Shown here piece by piece: positions 692 through 7,408 of a DNA stretch of 42,363 bases. The notes beneath the pieces are model-generated. The model worked only from the letters and a program-made list of their open reading frames with translations. It ran no database searches and was not told the DNA's origin. The stretch's first letter is position 1. Every line of letters begins with the position of its first letter. The position numbers and the translations under genes were made by a program. Source of the DNA: a virus; IMG/VR virus record IMGVR_UViG_3300013286_000021, positions 1 through 42,363 of that record. One strand, given 5' to 3'.

Positions 692-1173
692 CTACCTGGT
701 TAGACCGTCTCAGTGATAAGGACCGGGAATCATTTTTTGCTTTTTGTAAACAAATAAGCTCCCCAATACAAATGTACCTGTACGCCCGCTTCCTTGGGTT
801 TGCAGGTACGATTGTGGAGTGCCACGACTGGGCAAAAGAAAATTACAAAAAACGCAATTTTGCCGCCATCATGGAGGAAGAAATTGACTCCATGCAACAG
901 GACATTGCAAAACTGCGTGAAGCTATTGATATGGGGATGATCAAGCAGGATATGGGTGCTTCCCGTATCGCCATGCTTCAAAAAGAATTGCGCGGAACCA
1001 TCAAGCAATTAAACGATGAAAAGCACCTGACGGATAAGCAGGGACTGATCCTTGCTGGTGCCGACCGTGCTCTGCGGGAGATGCTGTTGATCTTCCGCGA
1101 TGATCCCATTGAAGGACCCCTGCAGGAAGCTTCCATGGCAGTATGGACCAAGATCTTGCAAGAAGAGTCTTGA
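664..1173 (+). CDS. Candidate terminase small subunit
   Basis: This 169-residue, mostly helical protein sits directly upstream of the large terminase, the usual place for TerS, which binds phage DNA and regulates the TerL motor. I see no sequence motif that proves the call. The middle (about residues 75-135) is rich in Glu, Lys, Gln and Met and looks coiled-coil forming, as oligomerising TerS proteins often do. The start is taken as GTG at 664, which overlaps the preceding gene by 28 nt; the next in-frame ATG, at about 772, would remove 36 residues. It could be another helical packaging or head protein. Confidence 0.5.
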   Translation: MVPASLQSVTTWLDRLSDKDRESFFAFCKQISSPIQMYLYARFLGFAGTIVECHDWAKENYKKRNFAAIMEEEIDSMQQDIAKLREAIDMGMIKQDMGASRIAMLQKELRGTIKQLNDEKHLTDKQGLILAGADRALREMLLIFRDDPIEGPLQEASMAVWTKILQEES

Positions 1174-1227
1174 AGCCAACTTAAAGGTTCTTGCGGTATG
1201 CTGATGGCAACACACGGTTAATCTTGA

Positions 1228-4200
1228 GTGGCAGGCACAAGTCTTTACAGCGTTCATCGCAGAACAGCACGTGCTGCTGCAAAGCAACAGGTTGTAAAGA
1301 AGACATCAGATGTTGATGTTGAAAAGGCAAGAACAGATTTTGCTTATTTCTGCGATGTAGTTGGAGATAAGCCCCCTGCCGCGCATCATAAAGAATGGCA
1401 TAAATATCTTTGTACCGGACAAGATACTGAATGTTTGATTGGAATTGGTGGCCCAAACGTAGATATACTTAGCCCCAGGGGTCCATTAGCTGTATCTATG
1501 CCTGTCGCCACCCCCCATGGTTGGCGCCCAATCGGAGATATTGCGTTAGGCGATCTAGTGTTCGCAGAAGACGGCAGCTTGACTGAGGTTATTGATATAC
1601 ATGATTATGAAAAAAGCCAAACATGGAACGTAATTTTTTCAGATGGCTCTTCTGTTGTTTGCGATGAGCAGCATTTATGGAAAGTAAGAAGGATCGGTAC
1701 AGATGCTAAGAATACTTGGCGTTTAATGACATTAAATGAAATTAGGACGCAAAAAATTGTAGGAGTAAAAGGCAATTGGCGGACTGGCGCAAAGGGTATT
1801 ACGGAAACTTGCAAAGAAGGCGAAACACCCTGGCTTGATTCCCGTGGATACGCACGTTATCAAATTCCTATTACTGACCCAGTTCAATATCCGGAATCTG
1901 ATTTACCGCTAGACCCTTATCTACTTGGGGCATTGATTGGGGATGGAGGGCTAACGGAGTCGGCTGGAATTCGGTTTACATCAATGGATGAAGACATTAT
2001 TGAACGTTGCAAAAAATCTTTGCCAATAGGGTATGAAATGATTCCGGTTTTTGGGGCCAAATACGGGTACAGAATTGTCAAAAAAACCAGAAAATTTGGT
2101 GGGCAAAATCAAATTTTAAATTTTTTGCGTGCACTTGGGCTGCAAGGAAAAGGGTCAAAAGATAAATTCATCCCCATCGAATATAAAATTGCTTGCATTG
2201 AAGATCGCGTTGCTCTTTTACAAGGGCTGCTAGATACGGATGGGACGGTGGGAAATAATCGATCAGGTGGTGGGAAGGTTTCCTTCTGCAGTATTTCATA
2301 TCAATTAGTGCTAGATGTAGTGGAGCTAGTCCAATCACTTGGTGGAATTGCCACGATTCATTCTCCGCAGTACAATCAATACCGCATGCGCAATGGGGAA
2401 AAATTACGCACTGAAAATCCTTCTTGGAAAGTAGGCATTAAATTACCCGCATCGATAACGCCGTTCCACGTACAACGCAAAGCGCAAGCCTACAAACCTT
2501 GCACTAAATATTTGCCCTGCCGTTCAATTGTACGCATTGAACCGTCAACACCGGAAAAAGTGCGATGTATAACTGTTTCACATGAAAAACATACATTTTT
2601 GACAAAAGATTATATTGTTAGCAAAAATAGCGCAAAGTCCACCGTTACTGGTTTGTTTTGTGCATGGACAATTGGCGTTCATGCATTAAATAAAAAACCC
2701 CTCAAAATCCTATACATTTCATATACGGTTGATGTTGCCCGCCCCAAAAGTGCTGCCATCAAGCGGATCATTGAAGAAAGCAAAACATACCGTGAAATCT
2801 TCCCGATGGTTAAAATTGCCAAAGGGATCAATAGCAATGAATACTGGAGCATTGACTGGAAATTTGCTGGCGTTAAGTCTACGGGTGAAGAAGAATTCAC
2901 CTTGTGTTGCGCAGGCCTGAAAGGGGCTGTTACGTCCAAGCGTAGCCACCTATGCTTGCCAGGCGCTACACTTGTGCGTACTAAACAAGGCCTGGTTCCA
3001 ATCCATGACATCTATAAAAAGCCCGGAGATCACTTGGTCAGCACTTACAACCCGAGGAAGGGTGCTCTTGAGTGGTCTGGAGTACACGCAGTGTCTAGAC
3101 GCCTTACCGACAGGCTTATCCACGTGGAAACAAGCACTGGAGATCTTATACGGGCAACCCCAGAACACCCTTTTTATATCCCCGGACGCGGAATTATCCC
3201 GGCCCAAGATTTACAAGTTGGGGACCGGATCTTTAGCCTTGCCGATTGCACGCGCCTCCAAAATTCAAACAGAATGCCCGAATTGCCTGAAAATATTTCA
3301 ACCAAATACAAATTGGCGGCAGGTTCTGCAAATCAGCAAAATTCGGATATTCCTTTGTTCAAAAAAATGCGCAGGAGAGTACAAGCGCACATTGGCACCA
3401 CAAGTCTGCCTGGAGTGCACCCAAGTATTTCGTCCTCGAAATTTGAACAGTGTGTACTGCTCGAAAACATGCTCCTCGCAGGCGCACTCAAAACGAATGG
3501 AAGGGAAATGGAATTCCAACTGGCGCCACGGGATGAGCAGGCCGCAACGACCCGCACTTCGGGAATTGGTTTTAAACCGCGACAATATGATCTGCACACT
3601 ATGCGGTATCAAGAAACAACTGTTACCTGTAAAACATCAATACGATCGCAGCAACTTAATTGTTCACCATATCGATGCGAATCCGAAGAACAACGTATTA
3701 GAGAATTTAATTACCTTGTGCAGGCCTTGCCACACCAGCTACCATCAGATGGCACAAAAAGCCAAGATACTGGAGTTACCATTACCGCTCTTTCAGAAGT
3801 TAGCGAGGGAGAGGAGTACGTCTATGACCTTGAAACAGAATCAACAAACCATAACTTCTTTGCGGGCAAAGGTGGATATTGCGTCTCAAATTGCGTGATC
3901 GACGACATTTGTAAGTCCGCCGACGAAATAAAAAACCGCGAAATCCGATTGGCAATGGAGGATAACTGGAACTCAGTTATTACGCCAACAATGTTTGAGG
4001 GTGGCCGGGCCATTTGCCTGGGCACTAGGTTTCGCCATGACGACATGCATGGCACTACATTTATCCCGGAAAAAGATTGGATTCAACTAGTTCAATCTGC
4101 AATTGTTGTAGACGAAGCCGGAGATGAATCTTCCTATTGGCCAGAGATGTGGTCCCTGGAGTACCTACAAGATCGTCGTCGCCAGGCCCCTATTAGTTTC

Positions 4201-4836
4201 AGCTTCCAATACCAAAATCAAATTGTACAAACAAGTGAGTTGTCGCTCTCACCTGATTTAATTATTAAAGGACAAATACCGACTGAATTTGACCGCCTTG
4301 GTATTGGCGTGGATTTATCCGCCGGAGTTAAAGAGAGAAATGACTATAGTGTTTTTGTATTGGGTGGTCGCGTTGGCGATAAAGTTTACATCATCGACTG
4401 CAAACGCATACGTTTGATGGGGAATTTAGAAAAACTTGAAGCGATGATGGAGATGATGTTTGAATGGGGCATCGTCTACAAAGAAGGTACGCGGTACATC
4501 CCGACCGGAACTAGCGTTGATGTATGGTCGGAGGCAGTAGCCTATCAGGCATCCCTGGAGGCTGACTTCAAGCGGATCTGTCTTGTTGAACATGGTCTTT
4601 ACAATGTGCTGTGGCATCCTGTCAAGGGATTCCGCGGCGACAAGGTAGCCCGGTTTCGTGGCATCATGGGTTTATTTGAACAACATAAGATCAGGTTCAA
4701 CAAATACCGTAAATTCCAAGCGTTAACAGATGAAATCATTAACTTTGGTGTTAGTTCTCACGACGATTGCGTCGACGCTCTGGTCTGGCTCTGTAACGGT
4801 TTGATGGCTCGCGGAAAACTAGAACTGGAATACTAA
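1228..4836 (+). CDS. terL: Terminase large subunit precursor with two inteins
   Basis: The 1202-residue precursor should splice to about 507 residues, a normal TerL size. TerL is the ATPase and nuclease that cuts concatemeric DNA and pumps it through the portal. Without intein 1 the Walker A loop reads SPRG/SAKST; without intein 2 the Walker B region reads RSHL/CVIDD. The C-terminal part holds an RNase H-like nuclease: an Asp in GVDLSAG near residue 1032 and a late acidic pair in SHDDCVDAL. The start is a GTG with a weak ribosome site and is uncertain. The gene is followed by a small AbrB-like gene and the portal. Both inteins interrupt ATPase motifs, so activity should depend on splicing. 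Confidence in the terminase call is high; the exact splice junctions are inferred. Confidence 0.95.
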   Translation: MAGTSLYSVHRRTARAAAKQQVVKKTSDVDVEKARTDFAYFCDVVGDKPPAAHHKEWHKYLCTGQDTECLIGIGGPNVDILSPRGPLAVSMPVATPHGWRPIGDIALGDLVFAEDGSLTEVIDIHDYEKSQTWNVIFSDGSSVVCDEQHLWKVRRIGTDAKNTWRLMTLNEIRTQKIVGVKGNWRTGAKGITETCKEGETPWLDSRGYARYQIPITDPVQYPESDLPLDPYLLGALIGDGGLTESAGIRFTSMDEDIIERCKKSLPIGYEMIPVFGAKYGYRIVKKTRKFGGQNQILNFLRALGLQGKGSKDKFIPIEYKIACIEDRVALLQGLLDTDGTVGNNRSGGGKVSFCSISYQLVLDVVELVQSLGGIATIHSPQYNQYRMRNGEKLRTENPSWKVGIKLPASITPFHVQRKAQAYKPCTKYLPCRSIVRIEPSTPEKVRCITVSHEKHTFLTKDYIVSKNSAKSTVTGLFCAWTIGVHALNKKPLKILYISYTVDVARPKSAAIKRIIEESKTYREIFPMVKIAKGINSNEYWSIDWKFAGVKSTGEEEFTLCCAGLKGAVTSKRSHLCLPGATLVRTKQGLVPIHDIYKKPGDHLVSTYNPRKGALEWSGVHAVSRRLTDRLIHVETSTGDLIRATPEHPFYIPGRGIIPAQDLQVGDRIFSLADCTRLQNSNRMPELPENISTKYKLAAGSANQQNSDIPLFKKMRRRVQAHIGTTSLPGVHPSISSSKFEQCVLLENMLLAGALKTNGREMEFQLAPRDEQAATTRTSGIGFKPRQYDLHTMRYQETTVTCKTSIRSQQLNCSPYRCESEEQRIREFNYLVQALPHQLPSDGTKSQDTGVTITALSEVSEGEEYVYDLETESTNHNFFAGKGGYCVSNCVIDDICKSADEIKNREIRLAMEDNWNSVITPTMFEGGRAICLGTRFRHDDMHGTTFIPEKDWIQLVQSAIVVDEAGDESSYWPEMWSLEYLQDRRRQAPISFSFQYQNQIVQTSELSLSPDLIIKGQIPTEFDRLGIGVDLSAGVKERNDYSVFVLGGRVGDKVYIIDCKRIRLMGNLEKLEAMMEMMFEWGIVYKEGTRYIPTGTSVDVWSEAVAYQASLEADFKRICLVEHGLYNVLWHPVKGFRGDKVARFRGIMGLFEQHKIRFNKYRKFQALTDEIINFGVSSHDDCVDALVWLCNGLMARGKLELEY
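1483..2628 (+). other. Intein 1 in TerL Walker A, LAGLIDADG, class 3-like
   Basis: About 382 residues in the terminase frame. It has a block A-like start (MPVATPHGWRPIGDI), a block B with HLW (Trp151 of the precursor), two LAGLIDADG motifs (ALIGDGG near 235-241 and GLLDTDG near 333-339), block F with Cys447 (VRCITV) and a C-terminal SKN followed by Ser+1. The N-terminal residue is not Cys, Ser or Ala if the junction is SPRG/P. Trp in HLW plus Cys in block F is the pattern of class 3 inteins, in which the block F Cys starts splicing; the usual third residue Thr is Ser465 here. The N-junction is inferred because it restores a sensible SPRGSAKST P-loop; a cut after GGPN is the alternative. Confidence 0.9.
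2953..3891 (+). other. Intein 2 in TerL Walker B, class 1, interrupted by out-of-frame HNH
   Basis: About 313 residues in the terminase frame, from Cys576 (CLPGATLVRT) to Asn888 followed by Cys889 of CVIDD. Block A, block B (ATPEHPFYIP, with the conserved TxxH-type histidine) and blocks F/G (EYVYDLETESTNHNFFA, then VSN/C) are clear. The penultimate residue is Ser rather than the usual His, which some inteins tolerate. Between blocks B and F, about 165 residues in this frame show no endonuclease motif and read like random sequence, while the +1 frame of the same DNA encodes zinc fingers and an HNH domain. The intein should splice as a mini-intein with a non-conserved linker. Confidence 0.9.
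3218..3898 (+). CDS. HNH homing endonuclease nested out of frame in intein 2
   Basis: In the +1 frame relative to terL there is an open frame from 2972 to a TGA at 3896-3898. Recognisable protein begins near 3260: two zinc-binding clusters (CPNC with FCSKKC, then CLEC with YCSKTC), an RPALRELVLNRD segment, and an HNH core with CTLC, HHID (nt 3665-3676), NPKNN, NLITLC and CRPCH. This is the organisation of free-standing phage HNH homing endonucleases. No ATG lies just before it; TTG codons at 3218 and 3239 are the nearest possible starts, neither with a strong ribosome site, so the given start is tentative. Expression could also need internal initiation or frameshifting. The last roughly 45 residues are only the shifted reading of the intein's C-terminal splicing blocks. 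Confidence 0.75.
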   Translation: MGTGSLALPIARASKIQTECPNCLKIFQPNTNWRQVLQISKIRIFLCSKKCAGEYKRTLAPQVCLECTQVFRPRNLNSVYCSKTCSSQAHSKRMEGKWNSNWRHGMSRPQRPALRELVLNRDNMICTLCGIKKQLLPVKHQYDRSNLIVHHIDANPKNNVLENLITLCRPCHTSYHQMAQKAKILELPLPLFQKLARERSTSMTLKQNQQTITSLRAKVDIASQIA

Positions 4837-4886
4837 AATTTACGTGCGCTCAAAGTAGGCTGCAATAAAGTATTCTGGAACTAAAC

Positions 4887-4900
4887 TGAGTAATCACTCA
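4887..4900. promoter_or_regulatory. Inverted repeat just before the AbrB-like gene
   Basis: TGAGT-AATC-ACTCA forms a perfect 5-bp inverted repeat ending at the base before the ATG at 4901. It could be an operator or a small RNA hairpin over the ribosome site; with only 5 bp it could also be chance. Confidence 0.3.
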
Positions 4901-5080
4901 ATGAATTACAGCTACTTCCCCATTGAATTGGAACAGGACGGCTACGGCTCGGCTGTTTTCCCTCTCCCCGATGAATTGTGCCACGACATGGGCCTAGTCC
5001 CTGGCGAACGATTTGACATTGAGGTGGAGGATGATGTGATCATGTTCAAGCGGCTTGCTGCTGGTTACGAAATTGAGTAG
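4901..5080 (+). CDS. Small AbrB/MazE-like (SpoVT-AbrB fold) protein
   Basis: This 59-residue ORF fills the gap between terL and the portal. The segment LPDELCHDMGLVPGERFDIEV followed by a short DDVIMFKRL strand matches the pattern of the swapped-hairpin AbrB fold (LPxEL, LGLxxGD, a run of acidic/hydrophobic residues, then a final strand). Proteins of this fold are DNA-binding transition regulators or antitoxins. No partner toxin gene is adjacent. The ATG is preceded by an inverted repeat that could be an autoregulatory site, which is inference. Alternatively it is a small virion or unknown protein with a similar pattern. Confidence 0.6.
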   Translation: MNYSYFPIELEQDGYGSAVFPLPDELCHDMGLVPGERFDIEVEDDVIMFKRLAAGYEIE

Positions 5081-5107
5081 GATGAACACACTGCGATCTA
5101 ACAGGTA

Positions 5108-7408
5108 ATGAGCGAATCGAACTCAATTCTAGATGGAATGCTTCGTGCAGCGGTAAACCGTGAGCCAAACGGTGCCGCAGACACGATGCTTATCAACGCA
5201 CATCTTGCCCAGATGAAGATGTTTGGGGTGAGGCAAGGTGTTGAATTTTATCCTCATCAAGATAACTTCGGTTCGCAGCGATTTGATTTTATTCAGCAAG
5301 TAATAAAATTTAATAAACTGGACGCACGGCTTGATTCCATGTGGGATCGGTTCCTTGCCTACGGTAAGGGGATCTTTTACATCCGCCCCACCAAAAAAAC
5401 ATATCGTTTGTATTGGTTTGATAAGGATGCTTACCGCACTTACTACACCCCAGAGGGCGAACTTGAAGAAGTAGTTATCATTTACCCATACAAGGTAAAA
5501 TCCTCGCGGGGATTTGGAGGAGTAGGTCTTTCCACCGATAAACGGTATATGCGTTTGCGCATTACCGCAACAGAAATTGAAGAATACCACAGCGAGCAAG
5601 AATTAAAATTTGACATGCCGGAGGCTTTTGCGGCATTAAATAAAACAACTGTCGTCAATACGCTTGAGTTTATTCCTTGCGTAGAAGTTTTCAATAATCC
5701 CGATGCTTTTGGAACCGAAGGTAGCGGAGAATTTGAGTGGCTTGCAAACCAAGTTGTCGCTCACGATGAAATGGTTAAAAACATCCGAGCCAACTTGTCT
5801 TTCTTTGGTAATCCAACGCTTCTTTCTTCGCGCCCTAAGCAAGACATCATTGAAAAAGCGGAAGGGGATACAGCGCAACGTCCAAGCATCTCAAGCCAAT
5901 CTGGATTTCAGTCTGAATTCAGTCTTTCCAGTTCTACTTATAAGCAAGATCCAACATCACGCAATGCACCTGGTTATATTGGTCGCCCCGGATCCGGGAT
6001 GCGGGTTCCAAGGGTTATTGCCAACCTGGAGCCAACAGATCGCGTAGGTTTTATTACACCAAATGCAGTTAGCGCAGAGCAATCACGTTATGTAGACCAA
6101 TTGCGTTCAGAAATTCGTCTTGCGCTTGGTGGCATTGATGACCTCAGCATCCAGAACGTAACCGCAACCGAAATTAAATCAGCTTACGGTCGCGTTAGCG
6201 CCACAGCAAAGAAAAAATGCCTCCAGCTTTACACCTACGGCATCTGCCGCTGTTTTGAATTGATAATTTTTCAGGAAGAACAGATCTTCCGTAAAACATT
6301 GGCACAATCGTTAGGTTTGGTCTTCCCCATCCCCCCGGAAGATCCCAATGACCCGAAACAAGAAACAAAATTCCAACGCGCTAAGGTTAAATACGAAAAA
6401 GCCTTGAGAGCAGGAATTGATGATGTAATTAATACAAAACAGATACCGGACGGCGTCCTTGGTTTAGTGCCTGACGGGGATCGCACCACTTGTTGGCGCT
6501 GGATGGGGCCAGTTTACGAGGACACTCCTCAAGATAAACTAAACCAATCAATCTTTACTCGCAACCTACAAGAATTAGGTGTTGATAGCATTGAAGCACT
6601 GAAGTACCTTTTCCCGTCCAAAACTGATGACGAGATTGCAGGAATGCTTTCTGGTTTTCCGTTTAGAATGGTTGGGGAAGTACAAAGGGCTTATTCATCG
6701 TTTATTGACATTGTCAATTTGCAGATGAAGACGCCACATCCGCAGCAACCCAATCTTCCGATGGCTGCGGATCCCCGTCTCAATCTCACTCCTTTCCTTT
6801 ACCGAACTTTAGAGAGTTTACAAAAAGAGGTAACCTATGCAGGCCGATACCGCAGCGCCGATCCAATCGGCACCCCAGTCATACCAGACCCAGCCGACCA
6901 GCTACGCGGCGCCGGTAGCCCAGCAGACGGCAGCTCAAGCTCCGATGGTGGCAACAACGCCGCAGTGGGTGGCACCATACCAGCCGGCATCGGTCCCAGC
7001 CCCGCAAATGCCGGCCCAGATGGGCGTAGCACCCCAATACCAGCCTACTCAATCGTACCCCCAGGGGTATCAGCAGGCTTACCAACAGGCCCCGGTGGCC
7101 CCGCCGGCCCCAGCCCCGGTAGCGGAGAATCCCTACAAAGAGGCATTCAACCGGGTGGTTGGACTCCTGAGTTCGCCGGTCCAATTCCCCTTCCAGGGTC
7201 AACAATCAGCTCCGAGTCAGCTAGCCGCCCCGGCCAACTACAGTTCGCAGCCGGCAACCCAGTACAGCAGCAACCCGTACCAGGCTCCGCTGACCTCTAT
7301 GCCTGGAGCCAGCAGCAACCAGGTATCCTTCAGCAACTCTTCCCCAACCTCGTTGGAAATCAGCCGGGACCAGTTGTTGGCCAACGGGGTAAGCCAAAAA
7401 AGTCTTGA
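5108..7408 (+). CDS. Portal protein with long C-terminal extension
   Basis: This protein of 766 residues lies right after terL and before the scaffold, the standard portal position. The portal ring at the capsid vertex is the DNA channel and TerL docking site. The first 576 residues are ordinary mixed sequence with features expected of a portal: an early Tyr/Lys/Arg-rich wing (FYIRPTKKTYRLYWF), a long helical region around residues 330-420 and an acidic/proline loop (FPIPPEDPNDP). Residues 577-766 are Gly/Pro/Ser-rich low complexity and are read from the same DNA as the start of the scaffold gene in another frame. The extension may be translated as a disordered tail, or the frame may stay open because of its base composition. 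Confidence 0.8.
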   Translation: MSESNSILDGMLRAAVNREPNGAADTMLINAHLAQMKMFGVRQGVEFYPHQDNFGSQRFDFIQQVIKFNKLDARLDSMWDRFLAYGKGIFYIRPTKKTYRLYWFDKDAYRTYYTPEGELEEVVIIYPYKVKSSRGFGGVGLSTDKRYMRLRITATEIEEYHSEQELKFDMPEAFAALNKTTVVNTLEFIPCVEVFNNPDAFGTEGSGEFEWLANQVVAHDEMVKNIRANLSFFGNPTLLSSRPKQDIIEKAEGDTAQRPSISSQSGFQSEFSLSSSTYKQDPTSRNAPGYIGRPGSGMRVPRVIANLEPTDRVGFITPNAVSAEQSRYVDQLRSEIRLALGGIDDLSIQNVTATEIKSAYGRVSATAKKKCLQLYTYGICRCFELIIFQEEQIFRKTLAQSLGLVFPIPPEDPNDPKQETKFQRAKVKYEKALRAGIDDVINTKQIPDGVLGLVPDGDRTTCWRWMGPVYEDTPQDKLNQSIFTRNLQELGVDSIEALKYLFPSKTDDEIAGMLSGFPFRMVGEVQRAYSSFIDIVNLQMKTPHPQQPNLPMAADPRLNLTPFLYRTLESLQKEVTYAGRYRSADPIGTPVIPDPADQLRGAGSPADGSSSSDGGNNAAVGGTIPAGIGPSPANAGPDGRSTPIPAYSIVPPGVSAGLPTGPGGPAGPSPGSGESLQRGIQPGGWTPEFAGPIPLPGSTISSESASRPGQLQFAAGNPVQQQPVPGSADLYAWSQQQPGILQQLFPNLVGNQPGPVVGQRGKPKKS
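6825..6831 (+). promoter_or_regulatory. Shine-Dalgarno site for scaffold gene, inside portal
   Basis: AAGAGGT ends five bases before the ATG at 6837. It is a good ribosome binding site inside the portal coding frame and is the main reason for placing the scaffold start there. Confidence 0.65.

Follow-up and report, generated by a model that had tools for sequence, protein, structure and literature searches.

A putative mobile intein of a viral terminase gene with an HNH endonuclease gene in the overlapping +1 frame

Homing endonucleases and their host frames

The textbook mobile intein carries its endonuclease as one domain of the spliced protein. In fractured genes, the host gene is in two pieces, with split inteins flanking a free-standing homing endonuclease gene; group I introns can hold an internal endonuclease ORF read apart from the host frame. 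Here we describe intein 2 of the terminase large subunit (TerL) gene in a viral sequence (IMG/VR record IMGVR_UViG_3300013286_000021; below, the window, i.e., the whole analyzed stretch of 42,363 nt). As in fractured genes, the endonuclease is separated from the splicing domain, but the two genes overlap within an unbroken host ORF; unlike a group I intron, intein 2 would be removed at the protein level, and its host frame is open throughout and encodes a HINT domain.

TerL inteins with the endonuclease in the same polypeptide are among those described in mycobacteriophages (Kelley et al., 2016, PMC5050341). Intein 2 shares with such canonical TerL inteins the site in the TerL ATPase motifs and the class 1 splicing residues, and differs from canonical HNH and LAGLIDADG inteins in that its endonuclease lies in the +1 frame rather than in the same polypeptide. 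The Walker B intein Gaia TerL1-e, for which splicing data have been published, was considered as a tested member of the present type and rejected, being of the in-frame LAGLIDADG type.

An HNH read out of frame in phage methylases, without a splicing domain, is described for ShiLan (2025; PMC11855218). The likeness is that a host ORF stays open while a second frame, sporadically, encodes a zinc-finger HNH, and the ShiLan HNH is about 35% identical to that of Gordonia phage Clown over 125 residues. The ShiLan HNH, however, is in the +2 frame of its host (from coordinates) and is separated from the TerL set by a long branch, and intein 2 is not of this type, since it has a complete splicing domain in the other frame. 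PMC11855218 also cites a preprint by Gosselin et al. (2025; doi 10.1101/2025.01.02.630785) on actinobacteriophage inteins with "non-canonical architecture"; because the citation concerns overlapping actinobacteriophage frames, that work may cover Clown-like cases. In the literature searched, Gosselin et al. (2025) aside, we found no description of an intein with an endonuclease in an overlapping frame; priority for such an intein is not secure.

Two open frames at the Walker B site

The TerL reading frame is uninterrupted from end to end (Table 1). The terminase-frame translation of 2953–3897 matches Pfam Intein_splicing (1.3e-11) and the N-terminal and C-terminal intein profiles TIGR01445 and TIGR01443; profile searches reveal no nuclease domain in this frame of the same span, which sets it apart from canonical inteins with an in-frame endonuclease. 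These matches bear out the first-pass annotation, which had placed the splicing blocks in the terminase frame and seen no nuclease motif there. Of the element proposed at 2953–3898, the start is retained and the end is revised: the spliced part stops at Asn (3891), and 3898 is the end of the HNH stop codon.

All class 1 intein residues are present (C1, T69, H72, N313, and C+1) and conserved in relatives. The penultimate residue is Ser in the window (VSN/C), Ala or Leu in near groups, and His in most others; His before the C-terminal Asn is usual in class 1 inteins, though not obligatory, and variation is tolerated. Among the inteins with an overlapping HNH, Intein_splicing matches 39 of the 40 aligned, and all 54 with both blocks located start with Cys and end with Asn followed by Cys (once by Ser). 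The splicing part is modeled by AF2 as a HINT fold with pLDDT >90 (alignments for the structure models comprised the window and viral contigs only), and the Foldseek comparison of the intein 2 model with solved inteins gives DnaB, RecA, and others, with E down to 1.3e-6. By its residues, predicted fold, and clean insertion, intein 2 appears to be a class-1-type intein, and splicing is predicted.

Over more than 900 nt, neither the terminase frame nor the HNH frame is interrupted by a stop, and the remaining frame is full of them. A search of the +1 frame against HNH profiles, as proposed at first pass, gives matches to Pfam HNH (5e-5, over the cut-off) and to phrog_1271, HNH endonuclease (4e-26); Pfam HNH_3 is matched by 36 of 41 +1-frame HNH sequences. 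In these 41 sequences, C78, C81, C95, C99, C140, H164, H165, N177, H186, and H190 are invariant (residues counted from nt 3176), and the H-N-H and zinc-binding residues are invariant or at least 90% conserved, so that the two zinc clusters and the full HNH core claimed earlier for this frame find support in both profiles and conservation. Of the earlier limits of the HNH region, nt 3240–3800, the first was set too late, selection on the HNH frame beginning near 3070, within the N-terminal splicing domain. The model of the HNH protein is good except at the ends (mean pLDDT 79); Foldseek yields only weak matches, the best (E 0.008) to HNH-type folds.

Table 1. Coordinates of the features of the TerL gene, intein 2, and the overlapping HNH frame
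Feature	Position (nt)	Strand	Remarks
TerL (terminase large subunit) ORF with two inteins	1228..4836	+	phrog_38 1.8e-66; Terminase_6C 2e-8
Intein 2, terminase frame, Cys1 to Asn313	2953..3891	+	directly before Walker B; extein SKRSHL / CVIDD
Intein 2, N-terminal splicing region, blocks A and B, T69-x-x-H72	2953..3240	+	TIGR01445; T69/H72 conserved; AF2 HINT fold
Terminase-frame linker, stop-free, disordered	3283..3804	+	AF2 pLDDT about 40; composition like that of free HNHs
Intein 2, C-terminal splicing region, blocks F and G	3805..3891	+	TIGR01443; V290, D292, N301, F302, N313 conserved
Cys+1, C-extein residue 1	3892..3894	+	
+1-frame ORF (mechanical) encoding the HNH protein	2972..3898	+	stop 3896-3898
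Candidate TTG start of the HNH ORF (tentative)	3068..3070	+	GTG 3062 alternative; purine-rich GAGGAAGGG upstream
Dual-coding zone, splicing residues 40-82 and N-terminal HNH ORF	3070..3198	+	both frames constrained
HNH frame, zinc cluster 1, C-x2-C...C-x3-C	3275..3370	+	
HNH frame, zinc cluster 2, C-x2-C...C-x3-C	3407..3472	+	four Cys invariant, 41 sequences
HNH frame, HNH core with own zinc pairs and HH...N...H motif	3593..3745	+	

Elsewhere in the window, intein 1 (1483–2628) lies exactly in Walker A (SPRG/SAKST) and carries an in-frame LAGLIDADG endonuclease; the nearest relatives are empty there. Its first residue, Pro instead of Cys or Ser, suggests a class 3 intein. Tandem repeat arrays occupy both contig ends (1–439 and 41793–42363), with units of 99/132 bp and 51 bp.

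Constraint on the two frames and production of the HNH protein

The comparison of synonymous and non-synonymous change in both frames, proposed in the first-pass annotation, was done in relatives. In the window group, the synonymous codon difference is about 57% in the exteins, 0.36 in intein residues 1–40, 0.21 in residues 41–80, and 0.16 in the linker; it rises again past the element, and five further sets drop similarly inside the intein. In the dual-coding zone, the terminase-frame value is about 0.05–0.21, compared with about 0.57 in exteins. Substitution classes (counts pooled over pairs without the window, window pairs being counted separately) place the constraint at residues 1–38 mainly on the terminase frame in the S-EIV1-like sets. 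At residues 40–82, changes silent in the terminase frame and altering the HNH occur in L028–L037 at a rate of 0.012, against 0.25 at synonymous extein sites; in the linker of L020–L021, HNH-silent changes reach 0.155 per possible change versus 0.014–0.017 for HNH-changing ones. HNH coding continues through the C-terminal splicing block in the window group.

Judged by these substitution patterns, the HNH is under strong purifying selection, and both proteins are shown to be constrained at once around block B and, in the window group, also in blocks F/G. Purifying selection in both frames, as in overlapping genes, is thus seen at residues 40–82, and in the linker it acts mainly on the HNH. The terminase-frame linker reveals no sequence selection of its own, its composition being that of free HNHs read in that frame; by the same patterns, the linker sequence is a by-product of the HNH code. 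The HNH would dictate the middle part, where the terminase frame only has to remain open. The HNH-silent position differs at 0.52 in the HNH region, and extein third positions at 0.39 to 0.59; as these values are close, the element is not merely young.

Intein 2 is, with high probability, mobile, with its homing endonuclease encoded by an overlapping gene in the +1 frame. In the terminase-frame precursor, the HINT domain would excise itself and rejoin TerL at Walker B, as the intact blocks and the fold indicate. The HNH protein would be read from the same nucleotides via separate, probably internal, initiation near intein residue 39, a start placed there because the constraint begins there (about nt 3070). 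It would then cut intein-free TerL at the insertion site, and the element would be copied in.

The candidate TTG is not kept throughout the relatives (L030 has TTA), and no start codon or Shine–Dalgarno sequence for the HNH is conserved throughout the about 55 loci examined. In a contig where the intein resides in the gene for the DNA polymerase III alpha subunit, DnaE (L080), a stop is followed immediately by ATG, with a strong Shine–Dalgarno sequence, GGAGGT, 5 nt upstream. We infer separate translation of the HNH and favor internal initiation over frameshifting, since the stop, ATG, and GGAGGT of L080 are suitably placed for it. Programmed +1 ribosomal frameshifting near residue 39 would instead produce a TerL-N/intein-N/HNH fusion and no separate protein. 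The invariable +1 position of the HNH frame, the abrupt onset of constraint near residue 39, and the lack of a start codon or Shine–Dalgarno sequence conserved across the family agree with it; however, a slippery sequence at the boundary was not recognized, the L080 stop stands directly ahead of the Shine–Dalgarno-equipped ATG, and the HNH frame of L044 is interrupted by a stop at +259, past the zone where the constraint starts in others. We therefore consider frameshifting unlikely and retain internal initiation.

Apparent mobility, loss, and recurrence in other viruses

The site is empty (SKRSHL-C/L directly before Walker B) in 71 of 74 close TerL relatives, including L181–L184 with 97–98% extein protein identity; Clown is occupied, and Wizard and YungMoney are empty at the same site. 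HNH distances are more closely tied to those of the splicing domain (partial 0.26) than to those of the extein (0.06), hence the HNH and the splicing domain seem to travel as a unit. Intein 2 looks mobile, its sporadic distribution pointing to homing. The location within the terminase gene could also suggest that the HNH aids DNA packaging rather than homing, and phage HNH proteins can indeed aid terminases, some being encoded beside them (PMC11855218); yet the HNH is absent from these 71 relatives and a similar arrangement is found in a DnaE gene, making a packaging role improbable compared with homing.

The first-pass annotation had expected the endonuclease and splicing to be lost or kept independently. 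This is partly borne out by L070 (988–1626), where a 378-nt in-frame deletion has removed the zinc clusters and an HNH-frame stop has been gained, both splicing blocks remaining intact; however, the two parts are not fully independent, because residues ~40–82 are constrained in both frames. In L009, a small intein is located at the corresponding site. Decay of endonucleases is common in fixed inteins, and both this and the decayed copy in L070 would fit an HNH that is a dead remnant pushed out of frame during such decay. Nevertheless, 41 sequences show no variation at the zinc and catalytic residues, HNH-changing substitutions are strongly suppressed, and the core lacks HNH-frame stops; hence, we regard a dead remnant as very improbable and an intact homing endonuclease as the preferred reading.

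We ran a profile of the HNH frame over IMG/VR and checked every match for an overlapping host ORF. At least 58 distinct viral host ORFs have an overlapping HNH (57 TerL-like and the DnaE of L080), in +1 in all; this is a lower bound, since the best 80 of 225 matches were taken. Among more distant homologues, a +1 HNH is also found in TerL of Synechococcus phage S-EIV1, of Clown, and in contig L008. The junction in the TerL-like cases is directly before the Walker B aspartates wherever both ends are covered. In the seven closest copies (viral contigs), the intein spans exactly 945 nt with both frames open; L002 and L003 are 67–68% identical to the window at the amino acid level in the HNH frame and 56% in the terminase frame. 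The median pairwise extein identity among TerL proteins with overlapping HNHs is 24%. No HNH overlapped by a long host ORF in another frame was found among the best 80 matches in 84,980 prokaryote genomes, and the HNH of L080 has no further relatives among viral contigs. In a quick tree with weak support, read without five exact duplicates of overlapping HNHs labeled "free", the overlapping HNHs mostly cluster together, apart from free-standing ones.

Several individual loci are of separate interest. In L080, the DnaE/PolIII alpha gene extends over 1108–5832 and the +1-frame HNH over 3815–4285. In the TerL gene of L078 (2966–5515), an intein near this Walker B site, at almost the same position, has its HNH in frame and is a canonical counterpart of the overlapping form. 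Between the window and L011, the HNH core (3613–3732) is 85–92% identical at the DNA level and the upstream linker only about 50–68%, a contrast that suggests recombination inside the element.

Host-frame stops are avoided in the overlapping HNHs. Synonymous-codon shuffling of the HNH core predicts a mean of 8.9 terminase-frame stops, with 0 observed and none of 500 shuffles stop-free. Wobble T before AA, AG, or GA, which creates a host-frame stop, is seen in 0 of 1712 cases across 59 overlapping HNH cores, compared with 2181/5380 elsewhere in these cores and 638/1555 in the stop-making context of 80 free-standing HNHs; the zero is partly definitional, as overlapping loci were recognized by their open host frame, and its controls are the free-standing HNHs and 632 third-frame stops. 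An ordinary in-frame HNH shifted by two compensating sequencing or assembly errors, for which the sole argument is that in-frame HNH inteins do occur in TerL (L078), has a negligible probability: the offset recurs unchanged in two isolate genomes as well as in 58 distinct host ORFs, inteins of the closest group are identical in length, and host-frame stops are synonymously avoided. The earlier view that a frameshift error is unlikely, with both frames open for >900 nt, has thus been upheld: error is excluded because relatives share both this HNH and its +1 frame, and a search for relatives with the HNH brought into the terminase frame by a one-base difference found all overlapping relatives to be +1.

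An overlapping +1-frame endonuclease gene looks like a widespread, little-noticed mobile-intein design, since more than 50 diverse viruses have this arrangement, always in the same frame; it is probably an ancient architecture, in which the endonuclease is not fused to the intein but overprinted on it in +1, in at least two kinds of host gene (TerL and DnaE). If so, endonuclease production would be uncoupled from splicing while both genes stay physically locked. Because such inteins appear endonuclease-free to normal annotation, the number of immobile inteins counted in phages may be an overestimate. The element would also provide a natural case of dual coding, in which selection is measurable in both frames, and it raises the question of how ribosomes start on the inner gene.
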